From Pseudomonas brassicacearum (GTDB lineage Bacteria > Pseudomonadota > Gammaproteobacteria > Pseudomonadales > Pseudomonadaceae): DNA of 64,000 bases. Location of the stretch: the NCBI RefSeq assembly GCF_009601685.2, contig NZ_CP045701.2:3410001-3474000 (forward strand). The letters run 5' to 3'. The number at the start of each line of letters is the position of its first letter. Position 1 is the stretch's first letter. Positions 14,075-35,937 of the stretch are shown in pieces. The translations under genes were made by a program, and so were the position numbers. The notes beneath the pieces were generated by a model. The model was not told the origin of the DNA. It saw nothing but the letters and a program-made list of their open reading frames with translations, and did no database searches.

Positions 14075-14145
14075 GGGTCTTTCCTCTTCTTGTACCGGGC
14101 GATTCCGGCAGGGTCATTAATGCACGCCACGCCTGGGGCTCGAAT

Positions 14146-14159
14146 GCTACTTTCGAAGC
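14146..14159. promoter_or_regulatory. Ped-island dyad upstream of pqqA
   Basis: GCTACTTTCGAAGC is preceded by GAAT on the + strand. The centre is 34 bp upstream of a -10-like ATTAAT (14116-14121, minus strand). The same sequence and spacing recur before pedF and nosP, suggesting one LuxR-type response regulator (PedR1/ErbR family) activates all three. Confidence 0.55.
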
Positions 14160-14229
14160 GGTGGATGGGGTGCGTTGGTACTACTGGAGAAGCGAGCACC
14201 TATGGCGAGGGAAACTTGCTCGCGCCGAG

Positions 14230-14354
14230 CCGTGTAGGAGCCGTGTAGGAGCTGTCGAGTGCAACGAGGCTGCGATCTTTCCCCAGACACTTGAATCTCA
14301 AGCGAAAGATCAAGATCAAGATCAAAAGATCGCAGGCTTCGCCAGCTCCTACAG
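14230..14354. repeat. Palindromic dispersed element, copy A
   Basis: This is a ~125 bp imperfect inverted repeat with GTAGGAGC at one end and GCTCCTAC at the other. The inner arms are AGGCTGCGATC and GATCGCAGGCT, with a central AAGATC tandem. The outer left arm has two GTGTAGGAGC units. It lies between the pqqA promoter and the pedI stop. Confidence 0.85.
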
Positions 14355-14363
14355 GGCCCTGGG

Positions 14364-15884
<1,521 letters not shown>

Positions 15885-15907
15885 GATGGGGCCTCTGCCT
15901 GGTCGAT

Positions 15908-15925
15908 GCCTGTCACAGGACAGGC
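15908..15925 (-). promoter_or_regulatory. Leader hairpin 1 of pedI
   Basis: GCCTGTC and GACAGGC pair around ACAG, 24 nt upstream of the pedI start codon. It would be in the 5' leader of the mRNA. Confidence 0.45.
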
Positions 15926-15940
15926 GATAGGCCGATGGTA

Positions 15941-15987
15941 GAGAGCCCCGCCTGCCGGACGAATGCGTCGTTGGCAGGGGGGCTCTC
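15941..15987 (-). promoter_or_regulatory. Leader hairpin 2 of pedI (strong)
   Basis: GAGAGCCCC plus CCTGCC pair with GGCAGG plus GGGGCTCTC (15 bp, one bulge, 16-nt loop). No T-run follows on either strand. It could be an intergenic pedH-pedI processing/stabilising structure or a leader element. Confidence 0.55.
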
Positions 15988-16040
15988 GTTATTTGGTCGT
16001 AGATTTCAAGCACTGGGGCGAGGATATTTGGCGAAACGTC

Positions 16041-16132
16041 TGTGGGAGCAAGGCTTGCCCGCGATGAAGGCGACGCGGTCTTCCAAGGAACCGAGGCGGC
16101 TGCATCGCGAGCAAGCTTTGCTCCCACAGGGC
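16041..16132. repeat. REP pair (BIME), type 1
   Basis: TGTGGGAGCAAGGCTTGCCC and the inverted AGCAAGCTTTGCTCCCACAG lie between the pedH stop (16169) and the pedI leader. Confidence 0.88.
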
Positions 16133-16168
16133 AGTCGCCACAAGGGCAACGCCCGGCTCAATATTTAC

Positions 16169-17944
16169 TCAGCGCTTGGCCACCAAGTCTTTCGGCAACT
16201 TGAAGGTCCAGAGCATGCCGCCCTGGTTGAAGTCCTTCACGCGCTTGGCCACCTCGCCGCCCCACAGCGGCACCGCGCCGCCCCAGCCGGAGACCACGGA
16301 GACGTATTGCTCGCCGTCCATTTCCCAGGTGATAGGTGAGCCGAGCACGCCGGAGCCCGTCTGGAATTCCCAGACCTTTTCCCCGGTCTTGGCGTTGAAC
16401 GCCTGCAGGAACCCTTCAGGCGTGCCGGTGAACACCAGGTTGCCCTTGGTGGTCAGGACCCCGCCCCACAGCGGCGCGTAGTTCTTGTGGCGCCAGACTT
16501 CCTTGCCGGTCTTGGGGTCGATGGCCCGCAGCACGCCGATGTAATCCTCGTTCAGCGGCTTGATGGTGAAACCGGCCCCGAGGAACGCGGCGCCTTTCTT
16601 GTAGGCGATGCCTTCGTTCCAGATGTCCATGCCCCACTCGTTGGACGGTACGTAGAACAACCCGGTGTCCTGGTTGTAGGCCATCGGCATCCAGTTTTTC
16701 GCGCCGAGGAAAGCCGGTGCGACGAACACCGAACTGCCCTTGGCTTCGCTGCCCGGCGCGCCCGGACGGCTGGCCTCGTTGTAGATCGGCCGCCCGTCCT
16801 TGTCCAGGCCAGTGGCCCAGGTGATCTTGTCGACAAACGGGAAGCCGCGGATGAACTTGCCGTTGGTGCGGTCGAGCACGTAGAAGAAGCCGTTACGGTC
16901 CGCGGTCGCCGCCGCCTTGATGTCCTTGCCGCCTTCCTTGTAGTTGAACGAGATCAGTTCATTGACGCCGTCATAGTCCCAGCCGTCGTGAGGCGTGCTC
17001 TGGAAGTGCCACTTGATGGTGCCGTCGTCCGGGTTCAGGGCCAGGCGCGACGACGAATAGAGGTTGTCGCCAGGACGCAGGTGGGAGTTCCAGGGGGCCG
17101 GGTTGCCGGTCCCGAACAGCAACAGGTTGGTTTCCGGGTCGTAGTAGCCACCCAGCCAAGGCGCGGCGCCGCCGGTTTTCCAGAGGTCGCCCGGCCAGGT
17201 CTTGCCGGCCTCGCCGCCGGAAATCCCATTCTCGATGGCTTTACCGTCCTTGTAGACGTAGCCCATGTGGCCTTCGACGGTTGGGCGAGTCCACAGCAGG
17301 TCACCGTTCTTCGGGTCGTAGGCACTGATCTGGCCCACCACGCCGAACTCGCCTCCGGCCACACCGGTGATCAGCTTGCCGTTGATGACCAGCGGCGCGG
17401 CACTGATGGAATAACCTGCCTTGTGGTCAGCCACCTTCTTGCTCCACACCACTTTGCCGGTGTCCTTGTTCAGGGCCACGAGCTTGGCGTCGAGGGTGCC
17501 GAAGAACACCAGGTCGCCATACAACGCCACGCCGCGGTTGATCACGTCGCAGCAAGGACGGATGTCATCGGGCAGGCGCGCATCGTATTGCCACAGCTTC
17601 TTGCCGGTGCGCGCATCCACTGCGAATACCCGCGAATAGGAACCGGTGAGGTACATCACCCCGTCCTTGATCATCGGCTGGGCCTGCTGGCCGCGCTGCT
17701 TTTCGCCGCCGAAGGAGAACGCCCAGACCGGTCGCAGGTCCTTGACGTTATTGACATTGAGGGTATCGAGCGGGCTGTAGCGCTGGCCCTGGACCCCCAG
17801 GCCGTTGGTCACGATCTGTTGCGGGTTTTTCGGGTCCTGAAGAATTTCCTGATCGGTCACGGCTGCAAGGGCCGAACCGGACAGCAGCATGGCACTGAGC
17901 AGCAGGCTCACGGCGAAGGGTTGGCGACGTGCGGGATGACTCAT
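16169..17944 (-). CDS. pedH: Lanthanide-type PQQ alcohol dehydrogenase PedH
   Basis: This 591-residue periplasmic quinoprotein has a signal peptide ending near ALA-AVTDQ (residue 28), vicinal Cys131-Cys132 (IRPCCDV) forming the disulfide over PQQ, and propeller Trp-docking repeats ([33 protein letters not shown]). The decisive feature is [11 protein letters not shown]: the catalytic Asp323 is followed two residues later by Asp325, the extra lanthanide ligand of XoxF/PedH enzymes. The start at 17944 gives the signal peptide. The 82-residue upstream extension runs through promoter and repeat DNA. Two dyads upstream are shared with pedE, and AACAATAA lies just before the start. Confidence 0.95.
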
Positions 17945-17961
17945 GACGGCTACCTCTGCGG

Positions 17962-17969
17962 TTATTGTT
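17962..17969 (-). promoter_or_regulatory. Crc/Hfq-type motif before pedH
   Basis: AACAATAA on the minus strand, 18-25 nt upstream of the pedH ATG and followed by the ribosome site AGAGGTA. It fits AANAANAA. Confidence 0.55.
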
Positions 17970-17974
17970 ATACC

Positions 17975-17989
17975 CGGGAATTTTTCCCG
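17975..17989. promoter_or_regulatory. CGGGAA-N3-TTCCCG dyad in the pedH promoter
   Basis: CGGGAATTTTTCCCG (extended to CCGGGAA/TTCCCGG) is centred 38 nt upstream of the pedH start. The only other CGGGAA-N3-TTCCCG I found is in the pedE promoter at 21468-21482. This makes it a candidate operator for the PedR2 lanthanide-switch regulator. Confidence 0.5.
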
Positions 17990-18050
17990 GTCTGCCACAG
18001 ATTCTTGGGCTCGGAGCCGTTGCCAACAATTGCCCGCAGTGTTGAGTTTT

Positions 18051-18065
18051 CTAGTTCCTTGGTAC
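18051..18065. promoter_or_regulatory. CTAGTTCCTTGGTAC motif upstream of pedH
   Basis: Fourteen of 15 bases match CTAGTTCCTTGGTAG at 21417-21431 upstream of pedE. It lies 107-121 nt before the pedH start. The TTGGTA half also occurs in the dyads upstream of the ABC accessory operon. Confidence 0.5.
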
Positions 18066-18130
18066 ATACGAGAGACGAGACAGGGCTCATTGTGGCGAGG
18101 ATATCTATTCCCGCTGGAATAAAGCAGCAA

Positions 18131-18256
18131 GGAGCTGTGTAGGAGCTGTGTAGGAGCTGTCGAGCGCAGCGAGGCTGCGATCTTTCCCAATACACTTGAA
18201 TCTCAAGCGAAAGATCAAAAGATCAAAAGCTCGCAGCCTTCGGCAGCTCCTACAGG
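18131..18256. repeat. Palindromic dispersed element, copy B
   Basis: Same element as copy A: three GTGTAGGAGCT-like units, then TCGAGCGCAGCGAGGCTGCG, a central AAGATCAAAAGATC, and closing CTCGCAGCCTTCGGCAGCTC. It lies between the hydrolase stop (18258) and the pedH promoter and may insulate the two units. Confidence 0.85.
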
Positions 18257-18257
18257 A

Positions 18258-19187
18258 TCAGTGGGTCTCCACCCGTTTCATCCCCGCCCGCTCGTAACGC
18301 GGATAGAGATGACTGACGCTGCGAATCAACTCATAGCGGCTCAGGCTGATCCCGGCGAAGCGCTCGGGGATGGGGCTGCGGATCATCTCGGCCATGTCGT
18401 CGCCCCGGGCCGCGCCGTCGCGCATCAGTTGGTCGAGCCAGCCCAGGTAGTCGCGCATCTGCGCAAAGGGCCGGGCGTCGCTCGCGACCGGGCCGTGGCC
18501 AGGCACGACCTGCTTCCAGGGCAAGGCCTGCAAGGTGTCCAAGTCCCTGAGCCAGACCTCCAGGCCTGGGCTGTTGGGAGTGGTCAAGGCGCGTTCGTAA
18601 AAGACCAGGTCGCCGGCGAACAGGACGCCGGTGGTTTCGTCGAGGATCGCCAGGTCAGCCCCGGTGTGCCCGGCCAGTTGCAACAGACGCAGCGAGTGAT
18701 CGCCCACCTTCAACGTACCGGGGCTCAGCACCTGGGTCGGCAACATCACCTCGGTGCCGCGCATCCAGTCGCCCACCAGCCGGTACATGTTCTCCGCCAA
18801 TGCATCGCCCTGTTGCCGCAGCAGGTCGGTGGTGCCCGCCAAGGCGCCAATGGGCACGTCGCTGAAGGCCTGGTTGCCCAATACGTGGTCGGGGTGATGA
18901 TGGGTCAGCAGGACCTGGATCACCGGTTTATCGGTGGTCGCGGCAATGGCCTGGCGCAACGCCTCGCCGTAGCGCTTCGAGGGCCCGGTGTCGATCACCA
19001 CCACGCCGGCATCGGTGACGATGAACGCGGTGTTGACGATGTTGCCACCGTTGGACTTGGCAAAATTCTCGGTGCTGCCTTCCAGCAGCCAGGTGCCTTC
19101 GGCGATCTGCCGGGGCTTGAGTGAGTAATCGGTGGCGGACCATGCCGGCAGGCAGAGGCCAAGACAGATCAGTAACAGCCAGCGCAT
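18258..19187 (-). CDS. Quinoprotein relay system metallo-beta-lactamase-fold hydrolase
   Basis: This 309-residue exported protein has a signal peptide MRWLLLICLGLCLPAWS. It shows the MBL zinc motif THHHPDH at residues 95-101, further ligands in LAGHTGADLAI and FAGDLVF, and PGHGPV near the end. It is the last gene of the operon cytochrome c - binding protein - SoxYZ-like carrier - hydrolase. The family (quinoprotein relay system zinc metallohydrolase) is found only with PQQ dehydrogenases and resembles SoxH. By analogy with persulfide dioxygenases and SoxH it may act on a sulfur-charged carrier, but no substrate is established. Confidence 0.85.
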   Translation of the reverse strand: MRWLLLICLGLCLPAWSATDYSLKPRQIAEGTWLLEGSTENFAKSNGGNIVNTAFIVTDAGVVVIDTGPSKRYGEALRQAIAATTDKPVIQVLLTHHHPDHVLGNQAFSDVPIGALAGTTDLLRQQGDALAENMYRLVGDWMRGTEVMLPTQVLSPGTLKVGDHSLRLLQLAGHTGADLAILDETTGVLFAGDLVFYERALTTPNSPGLEVWLRDLDTLQALPWKQVVPGHGPVASDARPFAQMRDYLGWLDQLMRDGAARGDDMAEMIRSPIPERFAGISLSRYELIRSVSHLYPRYERAGMKRVETH

Positions 19188-19205
19188 GATGCGCTCCTTT
19201 TGTGG

Positions 19206-19961
19206 TCAGGGAATGGCCGCCTCGAACTCGTTGCCACTGTTGTCGCGCAGCACCAGGCGGGTCTGGCCCGAGCCTCGGATGTCGAAGCCCAGGTTGGGGT
19301 TTTCGCTGACCGCCGGGAACAGCTCCAGGCGCGCCAGCACCTGGCCGTCGGCGTCCAGCAGTTGCGCCTGGTTGAGGAAAAACTCCGGGATGCCGCTCAC
19401 CAGGCCGTTATCCATCGGATGAGCCACCTGCAGGCGCAGGCGGCTCGACTCGCCTCGGGGATAGCGGGCCCCCAACACCTCGCCCAGGTGTTCCTCCCAA
19501 CCCGGCTGGGTGCGCACCACGCTGGGCGCGGTGCAGCCACCACCGGCCGCGTCGATCAGGGTCGAGCCGACGTGCCACAGGCCATCGCGGGTCTGCACGG
19601 CGGCGCGCAACGGCGTGGCTTGTTCGATGCGAATGCGGATCGACAGCCAGGGCAGCACTCGCTCCCCCGGTTGGAAGTCGACGATTTTCGGCAACGGGTT
19701 CAGTTCGGCCCAGGCCAGCACCCGCACGACGTCACCGGTGAAGGCCCGGGCGTCGATTTCCAGTGGCACCTGGCGTGCGTCTTCGGCAAAGGGGGGCGCC
19801 AGCAGCCGCACCCGATCGTCGAACACGAACGGCGCGTCCCCCAGCAATTGCTTGTGATAAAAGGCCCACATCACCGACGGCACCGGGTCCTTTCCTGGTT
19901 CGACTGCCATCGCCAGCCACGGCAGGCACCACAACAGCAGGCCATACGCTCGCCAGTTCAT
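19206..19961 (-). CDS. Quinoprotein-associated SoxYZ-like carrier protein
   Basis: This 251-residue periplasmic protein has a signal peptide (MNWRAYGLLLWCLPWLAMAV). The N-terminal half resembles SoxY and contains DAAGGGCTAP with Cys143 in a GGGC setting like the SoxY carrier Cys, although it is internal here because a SoxZ-like half follows (LRLQVAHPMDNGLVSG onward). It is thus a natural SoxY-SoxZ fusion. The start at 19961 is chosen because it alone gives a signal peptide; the longer frame overlaps the upstream gene. It is encoded 10 bp after the binding protein and 18 bp before the MBL hydrolase. It may carry a sulfur species or metal in support of quinoprotein function; this is inference. 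Confidence 0.82.
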   Translation of the reverse strand: MNWRAYGLLLWCLPWLAMAVEPGKDPVPSVMWAFYHKQLLGDAPFVFDDRVRLLAPPFAEDARQVPLEIDARAFTGDVVRVLAWAELNPLPKIVDFQPGERVLPWLSIRIRIEQATPLRAAVQTRDGLWHVGSTLIDAAGGGCTAPSVVRTQPGWEEHLGEVLGARYPRGESSRLRLQVAHPMDNGLVSGIPEFFLNQAQLLDADGQVLARLELFPAVSENPNLGFDIRGSGQTRLVLRDNSGNEFEAAIP

Positions 19962-19971
19962 CCCTGCGCTC

Positions 19972-20847
19972 CTATTGGTACATTTCGGGTACTTCGTAGC
20001 GCAGGCCATAGCGGGCATACACCGCTTTGAGGCTGCCGTCGCGGATCAAAACTTCCAGTGCCTCTTCCACCGCATAGGCCAACTGACGGTTGCTTTCATG
20101 CACCGCCATGCCGATTTCCCAGCGTTGCTTACCCATGTTCGGGTAGGCATTTTCCGCCAGCGCCAGTTGCGGATCGGCGGCCTCGTGCACTTGCCAATCG
20201 ACTTCCCCACGCATGGCCATGACGGCGTCCACCTCCCCGGCCTGCATGGCCTTGAAGGCCTGGCTGACACCGGGATAGTGGTGAGTCTTGGCACTGAGCA
20301 TGCCGTTGAACACCGACGTCAGGTAGAACGATGGAACGCTGTCGACTTCGACGCCAATGGGGTGCTGCTGGAACACCGCGACACTGCCCACCGAATCCAA
20401 ACGTCGCCGGTCATACGCCACCTGCCAGCACTCCTGCTGATAAGGGCCGAACATCACCACCTGGGCGTTTGCCAGTTCGCCGATGTCGTTGCGCCTTTGC
20501 GCATAGTCGTGATCGTAGGGCACGCGCATCATCAGGTCGGCCAATTGCCGCTCGTGCAACGGACTGCTGCGCCAGATGTAGTCGCGCAGGTCGTCATCGA
20601 GCTTCTCGCCGGGCGGCGCCCACATCAGTTTCAGACGCACGCCCATGGCCTTGGCCAATGCCTGGGCCAGCTCCACGTCCACGCCCCTGGGTTGGCCGTG
20701 ATCTTCGAAACTGTAGGGCGCGAAGTCCTTGTAGACCGCGACCTTCAACTCACCGGCGGCGATCATCTGGTCGTAGCTGCGCACCTGCGCCTGTACCGCC
20801 TGGCCACACAGCAGCAGGCAGCACATTACCCACGCGAACAGGCGCAT
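19972..20847 (-). CDS. Quinoprotein-associated periplasmic binding protein
   Basis: This 291-residue family 3 solute-binding-like protein has a signal peptide (MRLFAWVMCCLLLCGQAVQA) and the amino-acid-type fold motifs LKVAVYKDFAPYSFED, GVDVELAQALAKAMGV and GEVDAVMAMRGEVDW. Members of this subgroup are encoded beside PQQ dehydrogenases without transporter partners and are related to MxaJ/XoxJ, which contribute to maturation of methanol dehydrogenases. A chaperone or activation role for PedE/PedH is therefore more likely than nutrient uptake. It lies 5 bp after pedF. Confidence 0.83.
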   Translation of the reverse strand: MRLFAWVMCCLLLCGQAVQAQVRSYDQMIAAGELKVAVYKDFAPYSFEDHGQPRGVDVELAQALAKAMGVRLKLMWAPPGEKLDDDLRDYIWRSSPLHERQLADLMMRVPYDHDYAQRRNDIGELANAQVVMFGPYQQECWQVAYDRRRLDSVGSVAVFQQHPIGVEVDSVPSFYLTSVFNGMLSAKTHHYPGVSQAFKAMQAGEVDAVMAMRGEVDWQVHEAADPQLALAENAYPNMGKQRWEIGMAVHESNRQLAYAVEEALEVLIRDGSLKAVYARYGLRYEVPEMYQ

Positions 20848-20852
20848 GGCGA

Positions 20853-21314
20853 TCACTCCTCGACGTGCACGCTGTCGAGATAGGTGCGCACCGCCCACAA
20901 GGCTTCCTGGCTCAGGTAGTCGGCCATTTTCGGCATGTAGACCCGGCCGTCGCGCACCGCACCGTGACGTACGCGCTCGACAAACCACTCATCGCCGGCG
21001 TCGGCGGCGTCGAGCAGGCGCAAGTCCGGGGCGATCCCGCCCGACTTGGCTTCCAGGCCGTGGCAGGCCGCGCAGTTCTGGTTATAGGCCGATGAGCCGA
21101 TCTCCAGCGCCCGGTCGTGTTCGGGTGAGGCGCGATAAGGGTTCACCGTGGCCCAGCCGTCACCGTCCAGTGCGACACCGGTGTCCTTGATCGGGGTCAG
21201 GCCCTTGGTTTCCACTGCCTGGGGCACTACGTTGCCATGGGCCCATACGGAGCCTGCGCCGGCCAGCCCCATCAGCAGTGCGGTAGCGATGATGGCGTTG
21301 CGTTTTGTTGTCAT
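20853..21314 (-). CDS. pedF: Cytochrome c550 (PedF/ExaB-like)
   Basis: This 153-residue periplasmic c-type cytochrome has a signal peptide ending SVWA-HG (residue 25), one heme motif CAACH at 81-85 and a likely axial Met in YMPKM. It accepts electrons from PedE/PedH and hands them to the terminal oxidase. It is the first gene of a four-gene operon and divergent from pedE. The start at 21314 is preceded by AGAGGGCATAAC. An AACAATGACAACAAAA stretch over the start codon resembles a Crc/Hfq site but does not fit AANAANAA exactly. The upstream -10-like TAAGAT is 34 bp from the dyad shared with pqqA and nosP. Confidence 0.92.
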   Translation of the reverse strand: MTTKRNAIIATALLMGLAGAGSVWAHGNVVPQAVETKGLTPIKDTGVALDGDGWATVNPYRASPEHDRALEIGSSAYNQNCAACHGLEAKSGGIAPDLRLLDAADAGDEWFVERVRHGAVRDGRVYMPKMADYLSQEALWAVRTYLDSVHVEE

Positions 21315-21396
21315 TGTTATGCCCTCTAGATTGCACGCAAGACCTCTGTGAAGAAGCCGTGCCGTCATCTTAGGAATCCCCTGCCGCCAGCCGAAT

Positions 21397-21410
21397 GCTG
21401 CTTTAGTGGT
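21397..21410. promoter_or_regulatory. Ped-island dyad upstream of pedF
   Basis: GCTGCTTTAGTGGT is preceded by GAAT on the + strand, as at pqqA and nosP. The centre is 34 bp from TAAGAT (21367-21372, minus strand), the best -10 for pedF. Confidence 0.55.
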
Positions 21411-21416
21411 CGGGGT

Positions 21417-21431
21417 CTAGTTCCTTGGTAG
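21417..21431. promoter_or_regulatory. CTAGTTCCTTGGTAG motif in the pedF-pedE divergent region
   Basis: Near-identical to 18051-18065 upstream of pedH. It lies 138-152 nt before the pedE start and next to the pedF dyad. Confidence 0.5.
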
Positions 21432-21467
21432 CAGGCCATCCGACGCAGGTCGTAAAGACAGGCGGCT

Positions 21468-21482
21468 CGGGAAGTCTTCCCG
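21468..21482. promoter_or_regulatory. CGGGAA-N3-TTCCCG dyad in the pedE promoter
   Basis: CGGGAAGTCTTCCCG is centred 94 nt before pedE and matches the pedH dyad in both arms and the 3-bp spacer. It could be a PedR2 operator for reciprocal calcium/lanthanide control. Confidence 0.5.
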
Positions 21483-21568
21483 GCAAGGGCGGGACTTTTT
21501 CCGTATCGGCAAAGTCGTGGTGCGACACACCCTAGTCAGGCCAAAACCTTTCACTGGGAACTGCCACC

Positions 21569-23425: not shown

Positions 23426-23445
23426 CCCAGACCTGTACCCCATCC

Positions 23446-23537
23446 CCTGTGGGAGCGAGCTTGCTCGCGATAGCGCAGTGTCAGTCAACATGAATGCCGG
23501 CTGAACCACCGCCATCGCGAGCAAGCTCGCTCCCACA
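23446..23537. repeat. REP pair (BIME), type 1
   Basis: TGTGGGAGCGAGCTTGCTCG and the inverted AGCAAGCTCGCTCCCACATC lie between pedE and the pentapeptide gene. They may end or stabilise the pedE transcript. Confidence 0.9.
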
Positions 23538-23560
23538 TCAGCCTTCCGGGTTCCCTCGCT

Positions 23561-24205: not shown

Positions 24206-24230
24206 AGACTTGTGGCTAGGGACCGCAGGG

Positions 24231-24330: not shown

Positions 24331-24366
24331 GGGTGCCTCCAACCAGGAGCAAGCTCCCTCGCGGTT

Positions 24367-26258: not shown

Positions 26259-26260
26259 GG

Positions 26261-26512
26261 TTAGCGGCCCATTTGCGGAAGGAACTCGCAATCTATGTGC
26301 ACACCACAGTTCCCTTGTGGGAGCGGGCTTGCTCGCGAAAGCGGTGGGTCAGCTGGCATAGGTATCGACAGTGCTGTCGCCTTCGCGAGCAAGCTCGCTC
26401 CCACAGGGGGTTGTGGGTGCTTGATGGTTTTGTGCTTGCCAGACAACCGATCAACCCCGATCAAACTCAAGATCAGCAGAAACGGCAACAGCAGCGCTTT
26501 GAGAATCCGCAT
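26261..26512 (-). CDS. Possible small membrane protein read into a REP (83 residues)
   Basis: The ORF starts MRILKALLLPFLLILSLIGV after ACAGGAGCGG and its first ~30 residues look like a genuine signal/TM segment. The remainder (from GASLLAKA) is translation of a REP pair, ending 3 nt before the pedS2 start. The N-terminal part may be a real small protein whose original end was replaced by the REP, or the whole frame may be fortuitous. Confidence 0.3.
   Translation of the reverse strand: MRILKALLLPFLLILSLIGVDRLSGKHKTIKHPQPPVGASLLAKATALSIPMPADPPLSRASPLPQGNCGVHIDCEFLPQMGR
26314..26408. repeat. REP pair (BIME), type 1
   Basis: TTGTGGGAGCGGGCTTGCTC and the inverted GAGCAAGCTCGCTCCCACAG lie in the 410-bp divergent region between pedS2 and the accessory ABC operon. 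Confidence 0.9.
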
Positions 26513-26576
26513 GGTCCGTCCGCTCCTGTCAATGACGATTGCCTTGCATCCTAAAACCCCCGCATCCAAGCTGAGT

Positions 26577-26592
26577 TACTACCTTGGTACTG
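26577..26592. promoter_or_regulatory. Ped-island dyad upstream of the ABC accessory operon
   Basis: TACTACCTTGGTACTG contains CTACCTTGGTAC, the same dyad type as at nosP, pqqA and pedF. It lies ~29 bp upstream of a CATATT -10 candidate (26611-26616) and 77-92 nt from the start at 26669. Confidence 0.5.
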
Positions 26593-26668
26593 CACCGGCG
26601 GTACTTTCTGCATATTTCCCCATGGCCGCAGGCTTCCTATGCTGGCGCTACCTGCAATGGAGGATGTC

Positions 26669-27835: not shown

Positions 27836-27840
27836 TCGAT

Positions 27841-27851
27841 AACAACAATAA
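27841..27851 (+). promoter_or_regulatory. Crc/Hfq-type motif overlapping the ribosome site
   Basis: AACAACAATAA, directly followed by AGGAAAA, precedes the beta-propeller start at 27863. It contains two overlapping AANAANAA matches and is the best Crc/Hfq candidate in the window. Confidence 0.65.
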
Positions 27852-27862
27852 GGAAAACCACC

Positions 27863-28870: not shown

Positions 28871-29598
28871 ACGCCCTGGAGGTCAGCGACCTGAGCTTTG
28901 CCTATGGCGCGCGCGAAGCCCTCAAGCAGATGAATTTCTGCCTGCCCGCCGGACACTTCGCCGCGCTGCTGGGGCCCAATGGCGCCGGCAAGTCGACGCT
29001 GATCGCCCTGCTCACGCGCCTGTACGAGCTGCAACGCGGCGACATCCGCGTCGCAGGTCATTCCCTGCAAAAATCTCCGCGTCCGGCCTTGCGCCAGTTG
29101 GGCGTGGTGTTCCAACAGAGCACCCTGGACCTGGACTTGAGCATTGAACAGAACCTGCGTTATCACCTGGCGCTGCACGGTTTTTCGCGGCGCCAGGGCA
29201 GTGCCCGTATCGACGCTGAACTGAGTCGCCAGCAACTGACCGAGCGCCGCCACGAGCGGGTACGCGACCTCAACGGTGGTCATCGGCGCCGGGTGGAAAT
29301 CGCCCGCGCCCTGCTCCACGAACCGCGCCTGTTGCTGCTCGACGAACCCAGCGTCGGCCTTGATCCGGCCAGTCGCCTCGCCCTGGGCCTGCACATCCGG
29401 CAACTGTGCAGCGAGCAAGGCATCAGCGTGCTCTGGACCACTCACCTGCTGGACGAAGTGCAGCCCAGCGACGACCTGTTGATCGTGCACCAGGGCCGCC
29501 TGGTCGCCAGCGGGCAGGCCGACGCGGTGAGCCTGGAACACGGCGGCACCCTCGGTTCGGCCTTCACCCGCTTGACCGCCTCGGGAGTCCGGCCATGA
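28867..29598 (+). CDS. ABC transporter ATP-binding protein (PQQ-associated)
   Basis: This 243-residue ATPase has Walker A GPNGAGKST near residue 38, a Q-loop in VVFQQSTLDLDLS, a degenerate signature LNGGHRRRVEIARAL (LSGGQ replaced by LNGGH), Walker B LLLLDEPSVGLDP and the switch His in TTHLLDEV. The exporter-type (NodI/DrrA-like) sequence pairs with an ABC-2 permease encoded next, overlapping in ATGA. The periplasmic partners upstream are unusual for an ABC-2 system. Substrate unknown; linked to quinoprotein function by context. Confidence 0.87.
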   Translation: MNALEVSDLSFAYGAREALKQMNFCLPAGHFAALLGPNGAGKSTLIALLTRLYELQRGDIRVAGHSLQKSPRPALRQLGVVFQQSTLDLDLSIEQNLRYHLALHGFSRRQGSARIDAELSRQQLTERRHERVRDLNGGHRRRVEIARALLHEPRLLLLDEPSVGLDPASRLALGLHIRQLCSEQGISVLWTTHLLDEVQPSDDLLIVHQGRLVASGQADAVSLEHGGTLGSAFTRLTASGVRP

Positions 29599-30389
29599 AT
29601 GCTTACTGGCAATGTTTCAGCGGCATCGTAACGCGCGAATGGCTGCGTTTCGTGCTGCAACGCACCCGGCTGCTCAGCGCCCTGGTACGGCCCCTGCTGT
29701 GGCTGCTGGTGTTCGCCGCCGGCTTTCGCGCGGCACTGGGCATCGCCATCATCGCGCCCTACGACACCTACATCCCCTATGAGGTGTACATCGTGCCCGG
29801 GCTGGCCTGCATGATCCTGTTGTTCAACGGCATGCAGGGCTCGCTGTCGATGGTCTACGACCGGGAAATGGGCAGCATGCGCGTGCTGCTCACCAGCCCC
29901 CTGCCGCGGGCTTTCCTGCTGGCGAGCAAGTTGTTGGCGACCTCGCTGATCTCGCTGTTGCAGGTCTATGCCTTTCTCGCCATCGCCTGGCTGTACGGCA
30001 TCCAGCCACCGACCATGGGCCTGCTACTGGCCCTCCCGGCCCTGTTGCTTGTGGCCCTGATGCTCAGCGCCCTGGGCTTGCTGCTGTCCAATGCCATCCG
30101 GCAACTGGAGAACTTCGCCGGGGTGATGAATTTCGTGATATTCCCGATGTTCTTCCTGTCTTCAGCGCTGTACCCACTGTGGAAAATGCAGGAAGCCAGT
30201 CCTTGGCTGTACTGGCTTTGCGCGGTCAGCCCGTTTACCCATGGCGTGGAGTTGGTGCGTTTTGCGCTGTATGAGCAATTCAACCTGCTGGCGATGGCGG
30301 TGTGCGCGGGGTTGACCCTGCTGTTCGCACTGTTGGCGGTGTGGACTTTCAATCCGCAGCATGCGGCGTTGCGCAAGGCCGGCAGCTAA
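29595..30389 (+). CDS. ABC-2 type permease (PQQ-associated)
   Basis: This 264-residue inner-membrane protein has six membrane segments (PLLWLLVFAAGFRAALGIAI, AFLAIAWLYGIQ, LLALPALLLVALMLSALGLL, FVIFPMFFLSSALYPLW and others) and the ABC-2 motif FLSSALYPLWKM. It is encoded in ATGA overlap with its ATPase. It belongs with exporters such as NodJ/DrrB. A REP pair with extended complementarity follows and probably ends the transcript. Confidence 0.86.
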   Translation: MNAYWQCFSGIVTREWLRFVLQRTRLLSALVRPLLWLLVFAAGFRAALGIAIIAPYDTYIPYEVYIVPGLACMILLFNGMQGSLSMVYDREMGSMRVLLTSPLPRAFLLASKLLATSLISLLQVYAFLAIAWLYGIQPPTMGLLLALPALLLVALMLSALGLLLSNAIRQLENFAGVMNFVIFPMFFLSSALYPLWKMQEASPWLYWLCAVSPFTHGVELVRFALYEQFNLLAMAVCAGLTLLFALLAVWTFNPQHAALRKAGS

Positions 30390-30398
30390 CGCCTCATT

Positions 30399-30513
30399 GC
30401 ACCGAACCCTGTGGGGGCAAAGCTTGCTCGCGATGGCGGCGGCTCATCCAGAATTGATGCTGACTGGCACACCGTTATCGCGAGCAAGCTTTGCTCCCAC
30501 AGGGTTCGGTGCA
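30399..30513. repeat. REP pair with extended arms
   Basis: Beyond the REP cores the outer flanks are also complementary (GCACCGAACCCTGTGGG and CCCACAGGGTTCGGTGC). This gives the longest REP palindrome in the window, between the permease and the CxxxCW gene. Confidence 0.9.
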
Positions 30514-30549
30514 TGTTCTCCATGTCGCGCCGGTCTTTAGCACTAAAAT

Positions 30550-30565
30550 TACTACTTTAGTACCG
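30550..30565. promoter_or_regulatory. Ped-island dyad upstream of the CxxxCW gene
   Basis: TACTACTTTAGTACCG contains CTACTTTAGTAC, the same dyad class as at 26579. It is followed by TATGGT (30577-30582) as -10 candidate, at a shorter spacing than at nosP, pqqA and pedF. Confidence 0.45.
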
Positions 30566-30623
30566 GTTTTCCTGTCTATGGTCGCATTCACAAGACCTCG
30601 ACCCTGGCATGTAATGGGCGCAT

Positions 30624-30631
30624 AACAAAAA
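30624..30631 (+). promoter_or_regulatory. Crc/Hfq-type motif before the CxxxCW gene
   Basis: AACAAAAA fits AANAANAA and adjoins the AGGATAAA ribosome site of the gene at 30643. Confidence 0.5.
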
Positions 30632-30642
30632 GGATAAATCCT

Positions 30643-31176
30643 ATGCCCCGTTTGCTGGCGATCCTCCTGCTGGGCCTGGTGCTGAATGTCGCGCAGGCCG
30701 ATACCGCGTTGTTTTCAGCGCAGGGCTATCGCATCGCCCAATACCGCAGCCCGACGCCCGCCACCGTCGACGGCGCCCAGACCCTCGACACCCAGGCCCT
30801 GCAACGCCTGCTCAGTCAAGCCCAGCCTCCGGTGCTGATCGACGTTTATCGTCGGCCGTGGCTCCAAGGGCGCTTCATCGACAACGAACCCCACGCCAAC
30901 CTTCCCGGCAGCCTGTGGCTGGCCAATACCGGCGACGGCGACCTCGATCCGACCTGGCAGGACTACTTCAGCCAACACCTGCGCACGGCCACCGGCGGGC
31001 GGTTGGATTCGCCGTTGGTCTTTTATTGCCGCGCCGATTGCTGGCTGAGCTGGAACGCGGTAAAACGCGCCGCTGCCATGGGCTATAACCATGTGTACTG
31101 GTATCGCGATGGCCTCGATGCGTGGGAGGCGGCCAACCTGCCCCTGCAAGCCGCCCGGCCCGAACCCTTTCCCTGA
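30643..31176 (+). CDS. PQQ-associated rhodanese-like CxxxCW protein
   Basis: This 177-residue exported protein has a signal peptide (MPRLLAILLLGLVLNVAQAD). The rhodanese-like fold includes PPVLIDVYRRPWLQG and the motif C129-R-A-D-C133-W134 where a rhodanese would have its active-site loop. Members of this PQQ-dependent catabolism-associated family occur only near quinoprotein genes. Two cysteines in a rhodanese-type loop suggest disulfide or sulfur chemistry in the periplasm, which would fit the SoxYZ-like carrier of the same island. It has its own dyad-containing promoter. Confidence 0.83.
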   Translation: MPRLLAILLLGLVLNVAQADTALFSAQGYRIAQYRSPTPATVDGAQTLDTQALQRLLSQAQPPVLIDVYRRPWLQGRFIDNEPHANLPGSLWLANTGDGDLDPTWQDYFSQHLRTATGGRLDSPLVFYCRADCWLSWNAVKRAAAMGYNHVYWYRDGLDAWEAANLPLQAARPEPFP

Positions 31177-31235
31177 TCTTGCAAGAAGTGCGTGCAACTG
31201 CCCTGCCCCACACGACAATAACGAGGTGAATGGCC

Positions 31236-31901
31236 ATGTATAAAATCCTGATAGCCGACGATCACCCACTGTTTCGCGAAGCCATCCACAACGTCATCAG
31301 TGACGGTTTTCCGGGCAGCGAGGTCATGGAGACCGCCGACCTGGACAGTGCCCTGGCCTTGACTGCCGAGCACGACGACCTGGACCTGATCCTGCTGGAC
31401 CTGAACATGCCCGGCATGCACGGGCTCAATGGCCTGATCAACCTGCGCAACGAGGCCCCGACCATCCCCGTGGTGATTGTCTCCGCCGAGCAGGACAAGC
31501 AAGTGGTGCTGCAGGCCATCACGTATGGTGCGGTGGGTTTCATCACCAAATCCTCGCCACGCTCGCAGATGACCGACGCCATCGAGCAGATCCTCAACGG
31601 CAACGTGTACCTGCCGCCCGACATCATTCGCACGCAAAAAAGCCCGATGGGCCGGCGCCTGAACGAAACCCCGGCGTTCCCGCCGGAACTGCTCCAGGCC
31701 CTGACCCGCAAGCAATTGCTGGTGCTCGAACGCATGACCAAGGGCGAATCGAACAAACAGATCGCCTACACCCTGGACATCGCCGAAACCACGGTCAAGG
31801 CCCACGTCTCGGCGATCCTGCGCAAGCTCAATGTGCACAACCGGGTGCAGGCGATCCTCAGTGCCGGGGATATTGATTTCGGGGCTTATTTGCGGCGTTG
31901 A
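31236..31901 (+). CDS. pedR1: LuxR-type response regulator PedR1/ErbR/AgmR
   Basis: This 221-residue NarL/FixJ regulator has a receiver ([16 protein letters not shown]; acceptor Asp near 54 in [20 protein letters not shown]) and a C-terminal HTH ([40 protein letters not shown]). ErbR/AgmR controls ethanol and PQQ genes in Pseudomonas. It is encoded 59 bp after the CxxxCW gene and convergent with nahK. GAGGTG at 31223-31228 fits the ATG at 31236 better than the in-frame ATG at 31230, so the shorter form is chosen. GACAATAAC upstream is only a partial Crc match. Confidence 0.9.
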
Positions 31902-31939
31902 CACACATCCCTGTGACAAGGAGCTTGCTCCCGCTGGGC

Positions 31940-32116
31940 CTGTAGGAGCCGGCGAAGCCTGCGATCTTTTGATCTTTCGCTTGAGATTCAAGTGTCTTTG
32001 GAAAGATCGCAGCCTCGTTGCACTCGACAGCTCCTACACAGCTCCTACACAGCTCCTACACAGCTCCAACACAGTTCCTACGCAGTGCCTACACAGCGCC
32101 TGCGCAGCGCCTACAG
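31940..32116. repeat. Palindromic dispersed element, copy D (long tandem arm)
   Basis: The core inverted repeat is followed by eight 11-bp units of AGCTCCTACAC with increasing decay towards 32115 (AGTTCCTACGC, AGTGCCTACAC, AGCGCCTGCGC). It lies between the convergent stops of pedR1 (31901) and nahK (32157). Confidence 0.88.
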
Positions 32117-32156
32117 GAACGGCGGGAGCAAGCTCCTTGCCGCAACAGCGTTCGAC

Positions 32157-34766
32157 TTAATGGCTCTGGGTCTGGCCCAACAGATGACTCATCGCAATCT
32201 TGAGCTTCATCGGCCGCACCGGTTTGTGCATCAGGGTGTGCCCCTGCTCGCGGATCTGCTGCTTGAGTTCGTTGCTGTAGTTGGCGGTGATCATCATGGC
32301 CGGGATCGGTGAGGCCCGGCGGGCGTTGATCCGGGCCACGGCATCGACGCCGTTCTGATCGTGGTCCAGGTGATAATCGGCGATCAGTAAATCGACCTCG
32401 GCGTGGTAGTTGTCCACCTGGCGGGCCAGGTCCTGTTCCGACAACGCGGTCACTACCTGGCAACCCCAACCCTCCAGCAAAGTCCGCATGCCGGCACAGA
32501 TCGCCGCGTCGTTATCCAACACCCAGACCCGAGCCCCACGCAGGCGTTCGAGCATCGGCTCGCTCATGTCCAGGCACGGCAGCGGCTTGGGTGCGGTGGC
32601 ACTCAGCGGCACGTCGATAGAGAACATCGAGCCCTTGCCCGGCCAGGAGCGCACCTGAATCCGGTGCCCGAGGATCCCTGCAATTTTCTCGACAATCGCC
32701 AGGCCCAGGCCCAAGCCTCGGTCCTGGTTCGGGCGCTGCACGTCGCCGCGCTTGAACTCCTGGAATATTTCCTCCAAGCGGTTATCGGCAATGCCGATGC
32801 CGCTGTCCCAGACCTGGATCGACACGCACTGACGGTGGCGCCGGCAACCCAGTACCACCCGACCGCTGGGGGTGTAGCGAATGGCGTTGCTCAGCAGATT
32901 GCGCAGGATCCGCGCCAGCAATTGCATGTCGCTGCGCACCAGCACCGAACAGCCGACAAAATGCAACTCCAGCCCTTCGCTGCGGGCGATCTGGGCGTAT
33001 TCGGCAGCCAGGTTGTCGAGCAGCTCACTAAGGCCGAACGGCGCGACATCGGCCTTGATCACCCCGGCGTCCAGCTTGGAGATGTCCACCAGGGTGCCCA
33101 ACAGGTTCTCGACGTCCTGCAACGAATTGCTGACGTTGCGCACCAGTTGCGCGTTGGCGACCGGCTCGCGGCGCTCGAGCAAGGCGCTGGTGAACAGCCG
33201 GGCGGCGTTGAGCGGTTGCAGCAGGTCATGGCTGACCGCCGCGAGAAACTTGGTCTTCGACAGGTTGGCCTGCTCGGCCTCGCGCTTGGCCTCCCGCAGG
33301 CGCAGTTCCACCCGGCTGCGCTCGTCGATTTCGCGCAGCAACTGGTCGTTGAGGGTGGTCAGTTCGGCCGTGCGTTCCTGGACCCGCTGTTCCAGGTTCT
33401 GGTAGGCCTGGTGCAGCGCTTCAGCGGTGCGCCGGCGTTCGGTGATGTCGCGGATCAGCACGAAAATCCCCACCACTTCGCCGTTGGCCAGGCGGTTGGG
33501 TACATAGGAGCGCAGCATGTAGCGCTCCTGGTTGTTGATGTTGGTCTCGGCGAACTCGAACGTCACGCTCTCACCCGCCAGCGCCCGCGCCACGTAGGCT
33601 TCCAGGCGCTGGTAATGCTGCTCGCTGTGGGCTTCGCGCAGGCTCTGGCCGAGCATCACGCCACGGGGCCAGCAATACCATTGCTCGTAGACCTTGTTGG
33701 TGAATTCGTAGACCAGGTCGGCGTTGAGGTAGGCGATCAGCGCTGGCACATGGTCGGTGATCAGGCGGATCCAACGCTCGCTTTCGCTCAGCGCCTCGGC
33801 GTGCTGGTAGCGTTCGGTGATGTCGGTGAAGGTGTTGACGTAGCCACCGGTGGGCAAGGGATGCGTGCGGATCTCCAGGACCCGGCCATCGGACAGGCGT
33901 TGCTCGGATTCGTGGATCAACCGACCGTTGCTGTCGCGACTGGCCGGGGTCAGCAGTTGCAACTCACTGTCGGCAATCACTTCGTTGAACGGCCGGTGGG
34001 CCGCTACCGGTGCCAGGCCGCTGAGTTCGAGGAAGCGCCGGTTCCACAGCTCCAGCACGCCCTGGGCGTTGACCATCGCCACGCCCTGGGACAGGTTGTC
34101 CACCGCCCGCTGCAACAGGTGGGATTTCTGCGCGATGGCTTGCTCGCGGCGCACGGTTTCGCTGAGCTTGACGTCGGTGATGTCGGTAAACAGGATGACC
34201 CGCCCGCCCTCCTGGGTCGGCCGCTCACTGACTTGCAGCCAACGCCCGTTCTGCAAGCGATACAGCACGTGCTCGTCGGCCTGGCCCCGGGGTTCTTCGC
34301 TGAACAGCCCGTTGGCGGTCATCAAGCGCTTGACCTCGGAAAGGCGCATGCCGGCGATGATGCGCACCCGGCTGTTGGCCCAGAATGCCTTGAAGCGGCT
34401 GTTGAACAGGACGATGCGTTGCTGCTCGTCGAACAGCACAAACGCATCGGAGATGCTTTCGATGGCATCGATCAGGTGCCGGTGGGCCGTTTCTGCCCGC
34501 AGCCGCGCCTCCATGGCCTGGTTCAGCGCGTCGGTGCGCTCGCGTACCTGCTCGGCCAGCACCACCGAGTGCTGGAACGCCGCATACGGGTCGTTGCCCC
34601 GGGTTACGCCGGACTCCACCCGTTCGATCAGCGCCTCGTTGATGCGCCGCAACTTGCGATTCTCATGCTGCAGGGCAGCGAGCTGGGCCTGCAGCTCAGC
34701 GATGGCCAGGGACGCGATGTCGGGCAATGGCAACTCCGGTGAACGTCTGGTTGATGTGCATGCCAT
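32157..34766 (-). CDS. nahK: PAS hybrid histidine kinase NahK/ErcS'-like
   Basis: This 869-residue cytoplasmic kinase has an N-terminal coiled coil (~15-95), three PAS domains (IESISDAFVLFDEQQRIVLF; AVDNLSQGVAMVNAQGVLEL; VPALIAYLNADLVYEFTNKV, each ending in an FTDIT or IRDIT motif), a phospho-His in AAVSHDLLQPLNAARLF (near 510), HATPase (WDSGIGIADN, GLGLGLAIVEKI) and a receiver (LLIADYHLDHD, Asp near 796). It is encoded after nosP with a 71-nt overlap. Start 34766 is favoured because GGAGAAC sits 8-12 nt upstream. P. aeruginosa NahK phosphorylates HptB and is inhibited by NO-bound NosP; ErcS' is the same gene and acts in ethanol oxidation. Confidence 0.87.
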   Translation of the reverse strand: MACTSTRRSPELPLPDIASLAIAELQAQLAALQHENRKLRRINEALIERVESGVTRGNDPYAAFQHSVVLAEQVRERTDALNQAMEARLRAETAHRHLIDAIESISDAFVLFDEQQRIVLFNSRFKAFWANSRVRIIAGMRLSEVKRLMTANGLFSEEPRGQADEHVLYRLQNGRWLQVSERPTQEGGRVILFTDITDVKLSETVRREQAIAQKSHLLQRAVDNLSQGVAMVNAQGVLELWNRRFLELSGLAPVAAHRPFNEVIADSELQLLTPASRDSNGRLIHESEQRLSDGRVLEIRTHPLPTGGYVNTFTDITERYQHAEALSESERWIRLITDHVPALIAYLNADLVYEFTNKVYEQWYCWPRGVMLGQSLREAHSEQHYQRLEAYVARALAGESVTFEFAETNINNQERYMLRSYVPNRLANGEVVGIFVLIRDITERRRTAEALHQAYQNLEQRVQERTAELTTLNDQLLREIDERSRVELRLREAKREAEQANLSKTKFLAAVSHDLLQPLNAARLFTSALLERREPVANAQLVRNVSNSLQDVENLLGTLVDISKLDAGVIKADVAPFGLSELLDNLAAEYAQIARSEGLELHFVGCSVLVRSDMQLLARILRNLLSNAIRYTPSGRVVLGCRRHRQCVSIQVWDSGIGIADNRLEEIFQEFKRGDVQRPNQDRGLGLGLAIVEKIAGILGHRIQVRSWPGKGSMFSIDVPLSATAPKPLPCLDMSEPMLERLRGARVWVLDNDAAICAGMRTLLEGWGCQVVTALSEQDLARQVDNYHAEVDLLIADYHLDHDQNGVDAVARINARRASPIPAMMITANYSNELKQQIREQGHTLMHKPVRPMKLKIAMSHLLGQTQSH

Positions 34767-35859
34767 TGAACTGTTCTCCATAGGTGTTGAACCCCATCAC
34801 CCGTTGTTCGCGCAAGAACTGGCCGATCTGCTCCAGCCCGCCGCGGTCTTCCAGCTCCAGGCGCCGGAGGAAGCAATCGCAGCCGATGGTCAGCAGCAAG
34901 TCGCCGAGGCGCGCCTGCAAACCGTCGAACAGCGTTTGCAGGTTCTGCAGCAAAGGACCGGGGGTCATCGCAGTGAGGACGATGCCGTTCTCCACCGCAC
35001 AGTAGAAACTCAGGCTCAGGTCCGGGTGCACCTGCTGGATGGCTCGCACGTAGTACTGGTCATTGATGCGCACCGCCAAGGGATGGGCGGCGAAGACCCG
35101 GTAGTCGAGGGCGCTCACCGGCACGCCGATGTGCCGGGCGTATTCTTCGGCGGCCGGTTCGGCGTTGAGCTCGTAGACCCGTCGCGAGGCGCTGTCGGCG
35201 CCGGTCACCACCAGTTTTTCCTGTCGGGGCAGGATGTGATGGGTGGTGAAGACTTCGAATTCCAGCCAGGTATTGATCAGCACCACCACCGCCGCGCCAC
35301 TGTGGAACTGGCCTTCGAAGTACACGTGGGTGTGGGTCAGGTAGTTGTCATCGCCGGCCGAGCCGCCGAAATGCGGGATGTCCCCCAGCGCGGCGCTCAA
35401 GGCCGCCAGCACCATTTCCTCGCGGCTGGACAGGCCATCGAGCAGGGTCAAGGCGAAACTGTGACCCTTGATCGGTGCCAAGGCGTTACTGCGACAGCCA
35501 CTCGCCAGGCGCTCGACCATTTGCTGGGCGTCGATCAGGCTGAAGTGCTCCATTTCACCGATCAGCTCGGCGGCAATGGAAAAATGCCGGTGATCGAAAC
35601 CCACCGCCGTCACGCAGTTGCGACCATAGCCTTGGGTGGTGATTTCACCGGCGCTGGTACAGCCCACCAGGCGAATCCCGCCGAAACTCCGGGACAGCGC
35701 CTGGCCCAGGGCCGGCAAATCATATTCGGCGGAACAGAAAAACAGCACGAAGCCCAGATGCGGGTGCAGCAACTGCCGCGCCAACGCCTGGGCCACCTGC
35801 TGGACGTCCGTCGCCTGGGACATGGCGCTCACCACACCTTCGCTCTGGGCCTGCTGCAT
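34696..35859 (-). CDS. nosP: FIST-domain NO-sensing protein NosP-like
   Basis: This 387-residue cytoplasmic FIST protein has an N-terminal FIST_N domain (LLHPHLGFVLFFCSAEYD, IRLVGCTSAGEITTQGYGRN, HFGGSAGDDN) and a C-terminal FIST_C domain (ALDYRVFAAHPLAVRIND, TIGCDCFLRRLELED, VMGFNTYGEQFNGMHINQTF). In P. aeruginosa the neighbour of nahK encodes NosP, a heme protein that senses nitric oxide. Start 35859 follows GGAGG. The gene sits between the ped island and the nos cluster and has the dyad GCTACTTGGGTAGC 34 bp from a -10-like TACACT, linking it to the ped promoters. Confidence 0.87.
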   Translation of the reverse strand: MQQAQSEGVVSAMSQATDVQQVAQALARQLLHPHLGFVLFFCSAEYDLPALGQALSRSFGGIRLVGCTSAGEITTQGYGRNCVTAVGFDHRHFSIAAELIGEMEHFSLIDAQQMVERLASGCRSNALAPIKGHSFALTLLDGLSSREEMVLAALSAALGDIPHFGGSAGDDNYLTHTHVYFEGQFHSGAAVVVLINTWLEFEVFTTHHILPRQEKLVVTGADSASRRVYELNAEPAAEEYARHIGVPVSALDYRVFAAHPLAVRINDQYYVRAIQQVHPDLSLSFYCAVENGIVLTAMTPGPLLQNLQTLFDGLQARLGDLLLTIGCDCFLRRLELEDRGGLEQIGQFLREQRVMGFNTYGEQFNGMHINQTFTGVAIARHRVPGHR

Positions 35860-35923
35860 CTTCGCCTCCGACGGGTGCGTGATAGGAGCCCTGAGTGTAC
35901 GAAGCCGCGTCGAGTCGACGAAT

Positions 35924-35937
35924 GCTACTTGGGTAGC
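35924..35937. promoter_or_regulatory. Ped-island dyad upstream of nosP
   Basis: GCTACTTGGGTAGC has perfect 5-bp arms and GAAT before it, as at pqqA and pedF. The centre is 34 bp from TACACT (35894-35899, minus strand). It is the clearest version of the motif. Confidence 0.6.

Follow-up and report, generated by a model that had tools for sequence, protein, structure and literature searches.

The ped island

The window analysed here is a stretch of 64,000 nucleotides from a Pseudomonas chromosome of 6.58 Mb. It holds an island with the gene order ercS, ercA, a lone pqqA, exaC (pedI), pedE, soxH, soxYZ, a binding protein gene, pedF, pedH, pedD, pedR2, pedS2, pedA1A2BC, a rhodanese gene, pedR1, nahK (pedS1) and nosP. 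The nomenclature is that of the published ped cluster, as far as it is given in the available part of PMC12997753. The following genes are referred to throughout:

14003..14074, minus strand: pqqA2, extra PQQ precursor peptide gene, 23 aa (TIGR02107, translation)
31236..31901, plus strand: pedR1 (agmR/erbR), NarL/LuxR-type response regulator, proposed binder (PF00072, PF00196)
32157..34781, minus strand: nahK/pedS1, hybrid sensor kinase with PAS, HisKA, HATPase and REC domains (Pfam domains)
34696..35859, minus strand: nosP, FIST-domain NO-sensor homologue (PF08495, PF10442)

PedR1 is encoded in the island and has a receiver domain (PF00072, 4.6e-27) and a LuxR/GerE DNA-binding domain (PF00196, 1e-21). 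Its gene starts 59 bp after the rhodanese gene, and its closest named relatives among the matches listed are from P. thivervalensis (100%) and P. brassicacearum (99%). NosP and NahK have the make-up of a NosP/NahK pair, with FIST domains beside a hybrid histidine kinase (HisKA, HATPase_c, REC).

A two-part element at the island promoters

The preliminary description placed the sequence GAATGCTRCTT at 14142, 21393 and 35920, and these are indeed exact copies, with no further copy in the window. In the coding direction the three read AAGYAGCATTC, and GCAT is followed after exactly 22 bp by ATTAAT, TAAGAT or TACACT. The fixed spacing claimed between dyad and -10 also holds: at nosP the distance from the dyad centre is 31 bp to where the hexamer starts and about 34 bp to its middle. 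Each of the three dyads makes up one half of a longer element, which consists of a distal site resembling CTACTACCAAGGTACTAG and a proximal site that ends in GCATTC over the -35, the usual layout being GCAT-N22-(-10).

Two further dyads, at 26579 and 30552, had been grouped with these three. They do belong to the element, but not at the same half or position: their centres are about 56 bp from their -10s (54-55 to the first base, not 31), and they match the distal site that is also found at pedF, exaC, pedE and pqqA2. The proximal position at their promoters is occupied by GGCGGTACTTTCTGCATAT and CCTGTCTATGGTCGCATTC, respectively. Promoters that the preliminary description lacked are those of exaC (15961-16002), pedE (18028-18068) and pedS2R2 (the 26576-26590 site, reversed). 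The sites are:

14142..14160, minus strand: pqqA2 proximal site CGCTTCGAAAGTAGCATTC; -10 ATTAAT at 14116-14121; whole element 31.3 bits with the sequence model R1 (see below)
14167..14184, minus strand: pqqA2 distal site GTAGTACCAACGCACCCC, displaced outward by 1 bp relative to most promoters; weak, rank 151 alone
15961..15979, minus strand: exaC (pedI) proximal site CCCTGCCAACGACGCATTC; -10 TACCAT at 15935-15940
15985..16002, minus strand: exaC distal site CTACGACCAAATAACGAG (alignment, hold-out scan)
18028..18046, minus strand: pedE proximal position, divergent, CTCAACACTGCGGGCAATT; -10 AAGAAT at 18001-18006; misfits the shared profile
18051..18068, minus strand: pedE distal site TATGTACCAAGGAACTAG; rank 13 of 127,951 alone
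21393..21411, minus strand: pedF proximal site GACCACTAAAGCAGCATTC; -10 TAAGAT at 21367-21372; whole element 43.1 bits with R1
21417..21434, minus strand: pedF distal site CTGCTACCAAGGAACTAG (alignment, hold-out scan)
26548..26590, minus strand: pedS2R2 promoter, with GTACCAAGGTAGTAA (26576-26590, the reversed pedA1 distal site), 22 bp and TAGGAT (26548-26553), from the letters
26576..26593, plus strand: pedA1A2BC distal site TTACTACCTTGGTACTGC (alignment, R1 scan)
26597..26615, plus strand: pedA1 proximal site GGCGGTACTTTCTGCATAT; -10 TATGCT at 26638-26643; GCAT-N24
30549..30566, plus strand: rhodanese-pedR1 distal site TTACTACTTTAGTACCGG (alignment, hold-out scan)
30571..30589, plus strand: rhodanese-pedR1 proximal site CCTGTCTATGGTCGCATTC; -10 TGTAAT at 30610-30615
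35920..35938, minus strand: nosP-nahK proximal site CGCTACCCAAGTAGCATTC; -10 TACACT at 35894-35899
35944..35961, minus strand: nosP distal site CTCATCCCATGGAAGCGT, degenerate; rank 289 alone; clear distal dyads in other lineages

Upstream sequences were aligned from 30 further Pseudomonas loci that carry PedR1, giving 19-26 genomes per promoter with the present one included. Alignment A1 has 55 of the 57 reference sequences, two rhodanese rows with indels being omitted and one pqqA2 reference shifted by one base. Three conserved blocks stand out from more variable DNA: the distal dyad, the proximal block with its terminal GCATTC, and the -10. The distal consensus is CTACTACCAAGGTACTAG or a relative with CTT or TTT in the middle of the dyad, and in this alignment its TAC(C/T) start is 57-59 bp away from the -10 in each of the seven promoter classes. 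The layout is of class II type, with a site over the -35 at a fixed distance from the -10. From GCAT to the start of the -10 there are 26 bp (GCAT-N22) in five of the seven classes, pqqA2, pedF, nosP, exaC and rhodanese, and 28 bp (N24) in pedA1, while pedE has GCAA in place of GCAT, 27 bp away (GCAA-N23). Mean information per column is 1.43-1.76 bits in the proximal block and 1.09-1.62 in the distal block; the spacer ahead of the -10 has 0.82-1.17 and the DNA separating the two sites 0.60-1.20. At nosP (1.09 versus 1.07 bits) and rhodanese (1.36 versus 1.20 bits) the distal block is barely above the adjoining spacer. The expectation that the dyads would be conserved at orthologous promoters is thus borne out, at pedE in the distal half only. 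The pedE proximal sequence differs from that of the other six classes and yet is conserved, with a mean of 1.43 bits.

The pedS2R2 operon has the eighth promoter. Here the palindromic pedA1 distal site is used on the other strand, followed by 22 bp and TAGGAT, TAGCAT or TACGAT. This layout occurs in 12 of 17 pedS2 upstream regions when 300 bp are scanned; the site in the present window lies beyond that distance, and the other four misses have coding-like DNA beside pedS2.

A different dyad, GGGAA...TTCCC, is present in the window at 17976-17988 (the pedE leader) and 21469-21503 (before pedH). It is found in 21/21 pedE and 18/21 pedH upstream regions, in 18/26 of pedF through the common pedH region, and rarely at other ped genes (nosP 2/19, pedD 2/21, ercA 1/24). 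The genes pedE and pedH are the pair inversely switched by lanthanides. G100, G046, G129 and G131, genomes without detected PedR2, retain the dyad at pedE, and for this reason it may be a leader hairpin or the site of another factor.

Genome scans and held-out promoters

R1 is a sequence-only model built from 55 sequences of the seven promoter classes, including those of the window. Across the 6.58 Mb genome it gives seven sites at E<0.01, each of them within the island (pqqA2, exaC, pedE, pedF, pedA1, rhodanese-pedR1 and nosP-nahK), and the next is at E=0.54 among the 150 of 1697 first-look candidates that were scored. An unfiltered scan of the window is led by the same seven sites, followed by 57484-57527 outside the island (12.6 bits, E=0.01 for 64 kb). 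This last match is missing from the genome list, so that list is incomplete for weak matches.

The exact sequence GAATGCTRCTT has six copies in the genome, three of them within the island. Finding three of six inside 21.8 kb of 6.58 Mb has a calculated probability of about 7e-7. The number of copies is itself ordinary (six versus four for a reversed-pattern control) and was dropped as evidence, only the clustering being counted. With up to two mismatches there are 13 matches in the window, below shuffled sequences (mean 22.7). The three copies outside the island are absent from the R1 matches listed at E<=10, again with 150 of 1697 first-look candidates scored. A composite pattern, TACYNNNNNRYAC...GCAT with one mismatch, was badly designed: it gave 13 matches in the genome versus 13 for its reversed control, none in the island, and R1 was used instead.

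Since the R1 training set contains the promoters of the window, a hold-out was run with weight matrices from six classes, excluding G000 (the present genome), G010 and G124, and both strands of the window were scanned for the seventh class. The own-genome site ranks first of 127,951 positions for six of the seven classes (pqqA2, pedF, nosP, exaC, pedA1 and rhodanese). For pedE the whole element ranks sixth and the proximal half alone 15,500th. The block geometry was fixed by eye in all classes beforehand, which favours the test slightly, and orthologues with an identity score below 0.55 were omitted (one of 22 for pqqA2, one of 24 for exaC).

Upstream regions of 80 named loci, at least five of which are the same records as training genomes, were scored with class-held-out models. 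In this scoring and in that of orthologues, G000, G010 and G124 were kept in training. Scores of at least 17 are reached by nosP (66/70), rhodanese (77/78), pedA1 (64/65), pedF (62/62), exaC (3/7) and pedE (4/26). Near-background exaC scores come from four of the seven named loci and from one of 24 orthologues, that of G017, whose upstream region resembles coding DNA. With the full model, no score of at least 17 occurs in the named loci upstream of pedR2 (48), pedA2 (22), pedB (65), pedC (65), nahK (59), pedD (45) or soxH (35). The few at pedS2 (5/39) and pedH (4/40) all lie opposite an operator-bearing promoter, and the two of 80 at pedR1 are the two loci that lack the rhodanese gene. Twenty control regions upstream of exaC homologues, 17 from genomes without PedR1 and three from paralogues in genomes with it, score 7.6 or less. 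Many of these controls have a TGGC...TTGC box that by eye we take to be sigma-54-like.

Paralogues in the same genome provide further observations. There are two pqqA genes in the present genome; the island copy (14003-14074) has the operator and the other (G000:C1:6014258, L062) does not, with no site visible by eye and no R1 match reported there in the genome search. A second exaC-like aldehyde dehydrogenase gene, 88% identical (G000:C1:5788351-5789868, L086), also has no operator, and its promoter looks sigma-54-like by eye.

Co-occurrence with PedR1 across genomes

PedR1 is found in 74 of 149 Pseudomonas genomes (E<=1e-80), and PedR2 in 50 (E<=1e-60), all within those 74. With 32 candidates scored per genome, so that weak sites may escape, and related genomes counted individually, at least two R1 sites (E<=0.05) are present in 72 of the 74 genomes with PedR1 versus one of the 75 without. 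The exceptions with PedR1 are G003, which has one site, and G080 (69% PedR1), which has none. The exception without a PedR1 match is G133, an 88% complete genome with five sites. Thirteen other genomes without PedR1 have one weak R1 match each, the best at E 0.0025. The own-genome R1 sites reported at E<0.01 are confined to the island, and across genomes the presence of sites follows PedR1. Co-occurrence alone does not name the binder, because the genomes are related and the targets vanish together with PedR1, but the pattern favours PedR1, short of proof.

In loci without the rhodanese gene the element lies immediately ahead of pedR1, at about 64-207 bp in G086, G051, G048, G141 and G070, and likewise in loci L183 and L184. 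In G086, G051 and G048 the divergent neighbour of this element is ercA. The same three genomes (L146, L149, L148, L156, L157, L158) carry the operator ahead of pedR1 and also ahead of a second Fe-containing alcohol dehydrogenase gene (382 aa; Pfam check on L156 only), and in G086 and G051 no PQQ dehydrogenase gene lies within the stretches fetched. In these genomes PedR1 would seem to have taken control of a different enzyme. In L047 (8454-10094, G064), and similarly in L045 (G012), an operator lies between divergent genes near pedS2/pedA1; those flanking it in L047 encode a 319-aa Sel1-repeat protein and a 148-aa protein without a Pfam match.

Beyond the genus, 16 of 194 genomes of the order have R1 matches at E<=0.01; they are from six genera with the own genus included, and 25 candidates were scored per genome, so that weak sites may again escape. 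Of the 19 loci read in the other genera, eight have a relative of exaC downstream, five of pedA1, four of pedF and one of nosP, and the last, L127, has a gene whose product looks like PqqB by its N-terminus.

PedR1 as the probable binder

Judged from the sequence comparisons, the element is very probably a two-part operator for PedR1 (AgmR/ErbR) that drives eight island promoters. Phosphorylated PedR1 would be the ligand, with the originally noticed dyads as the half that overlaps the -35. One dimer would bind the distal dyad at about -65 from the predicted start site, and a second the proximal site at about -43, two helical turns nearer, where it may contact sigma-70 RNA polymerase, the -35 of the promoter being poor. 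PedR1 is predicted to switch on pqqA2, which would be a regulated extra precursor gene, exaC, pedF and its operon, pedA1A2BC and nosP-nahK. It would switch on pedS2R2 through the pedA1 dyad in reverse, and pedE together with PedR2. The rhodanese-pedR1 promoter would provide autoregulation of PedR1.

A single class II-type activator, PedR1, had been put forward in the preliminary description, and this fits the conservation at orthologues, the recovery of held-out promoters, the co-occurrence with PedR1 and not PedR2, and the site directly before pedR1 in the absence of the rhodanese gene. The same comparative tests support the single regulon proposed for the PQQ precursor, cytochrome c, the accessory ABC system and NosP/NahK, and enlarge it. 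Points against PedR1 are that pedE has no standard proximal half and that the nosP distal half is weak in the present lineage.

According to the available part of PMC13390443, pedE, pedI, pedF and pedS2R2 require PedR1 in P. putida, and pedS1 is under PedR1 in earlier studies cited there. In the pedR1 mutant pedE, pedI and pedF drop most. They also fall moderately without PedR2, and PedR1 need not therefore be the sole binder. The pedS2R2 promoter needs only PedR1 in that report, which the reversed site fits, and full pedE activity requires both regulators (PMC13390443).

It is possible, and we hold it tentatively, that PedR1 and PedR2 both act at some promoters, with PedR2 at the divergent pedE proximal position; this is more an addition to the PedR1 operator than a rival to it. 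PedR2 may use the other half of the pedE element, as full pedE activity depends on both regulators (PMC13390443). The pedE proximal sequence is conserved in a form of its own, and pedI and pedF respond to both regulators in the same source. A similar pedE proximal sequence is, however, retained in G100, G046, G129, G131 and G060, where PedR2 is not detected.

It is very unlikely that the element is bound by the paralogous response regulator PedR2 (ExaE/EraR) alone. PedR2 is also of NarL/LuxR type by Pfam and is needed for pedE activity (PMC6115532), and the moderate fall of pedE, pedI and pedF in its absence (PMC13390443) would agree with such a role. PedR2 is undetected (E<=1e-60) in 24 of the 74 genomes with PedR1, however, and 23 of these 24 keep two to eight sites, on which ground we reject it as sole binder; the PedR1-only requirement of pedS2R2 and the larger fall in the pedR1 mutant (PMC13390443) also stand against it.

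Binding by ErdR, another NarL-family regulator of ethanol oxidation, is highly improbable. Control of ercS and agmR in P. aeruginosa has been ascribed to it, but the target mapping, in the available part of the same paper, has 15 promoters including acsA and not those of ercS or agmR (PMC9927353), and an element that is confined to the island and tracks PedR1 suits a local regulator better. Hardly any weight can be given to promoter duplication or a general -35/-10 constraint, for which the conserved -10 hexamers and the location of all eight promoters in one island might speak, since the downstream genes are unrelated, the spacers vary (0.82-1.17 bits per column before the -10) while the proximal half is conserved (1.43-1.76), no other own-genome match is reported below E=0.5 among the 150 of 1697 first-look candidates scored, and the pedR2, pedA2, pedB, pedC, nahK, pedD and soxH upstream regions all stay below 17.

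The nosP-nahK promoter and nitric oxide

The nosP proximal site, CTACCCAAGTAGCAT, is among the best conserved. With a model free of nosP sequences, 33 of 37 orthologous nosP promoters score at least 17, the lowest being 14.8, while two NosP paralogues (41-43% identity) have no element, with scores of 8.0 and 3.5. A relocated nosP keeps the element: in G113 nosP and pedR1 are some 195 kb apart on a single contig, and in G130, G092 and G069 nosP is on another contig than pedR1, more than 15 kb from contig ends. In other draft genomes the separation of nosP and pedR1 may be a contig break. A clear distal dyad lies ahead of the nosP proximal site in G069, G075, G013, G028 and G054, and because of these the weak distal half of the present lineage looks like lineage-specific decay.

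It is conceivable, though less likely than not, that the NosP-NahK pair serves alcohol oxidation alone, as its feedback arm, and does not work as an independent NO/biofilm sensor. In that case PedR1 would induce nosP-nahK, and NahK (PedS1), tuned by NosP, would move phosphate to or from PedR1, with NO gating PQQ-dependent alcohol respiration. In its favour, own-type nosP is present in 69 of the 149 genomes and 68 of these 69 also carry PedR1, the relocated nosP retains the operator, and the operator is also found at nosP in another genus (L122). A pedS1 mutant shifts pedF promoter activity up or down depending on the alcohol (PMC12997753). Against it, deletion of pedS1 gave no detectable change in catabolic genes or in growth on (R)-1,3-butanediol, according to the available part of PMC13390443.

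Relation to known regulons

Tandem-site class II promoters of the NarL type have a GerE-domain regulator, short TAC...GTA dyads and a fixed spacing to the -10. The ped promoters share the regulator domain, the dyads and the spacing, whereas the letters themselves and the GCATTC of the proximal half are peculiar to the ped set. The AgmR/ErbR/PedR1 ethanol oxidation regulon of Pseudomonas, as described in the available parts of PMC13390443 and PMC12997753, has the same regulator, with pedE, pedI/exaC, pedF, pedS2R2 and pedS1 under it. Added here are a candidate operator with coordinates and geometry, the pqqA2, pedA1A2BC and nosP promoters, a divergent site common to two promoters, and predicted PedR1 autoregulation through the rhodanese promoter. 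In P. aeruginosa the genes from PA1975 (nosP) to PA1990 are grouped in a single expression module that bears the name of ErbR (PMC9023270). This ErbR-2 iModulon agrees with the island as a co-expressed unit but is a statistical module, and no binding site is given in the available part of that paper. Operator letters for ErbR, AgmR, PedR1 or ErdR were not found in the passages of the literature searched. PedR1 control of several member genes is already published, and the element is in all likelihood a well-defined operator for a regulator already described; it does not amount to a new type of system.

The element offers a concrete candidate operator for the master regulator of PQQ/lanthanide alcohol oxidation, with which the PedR1 regulon may be read from sequence across Pseudomonas and its relatives. 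It would account for one site driving both pedS2R2 and pedA1, it predicts autoregulation of PedR1, and it would tie an NO sensor to alcohol respiration in a testable way.
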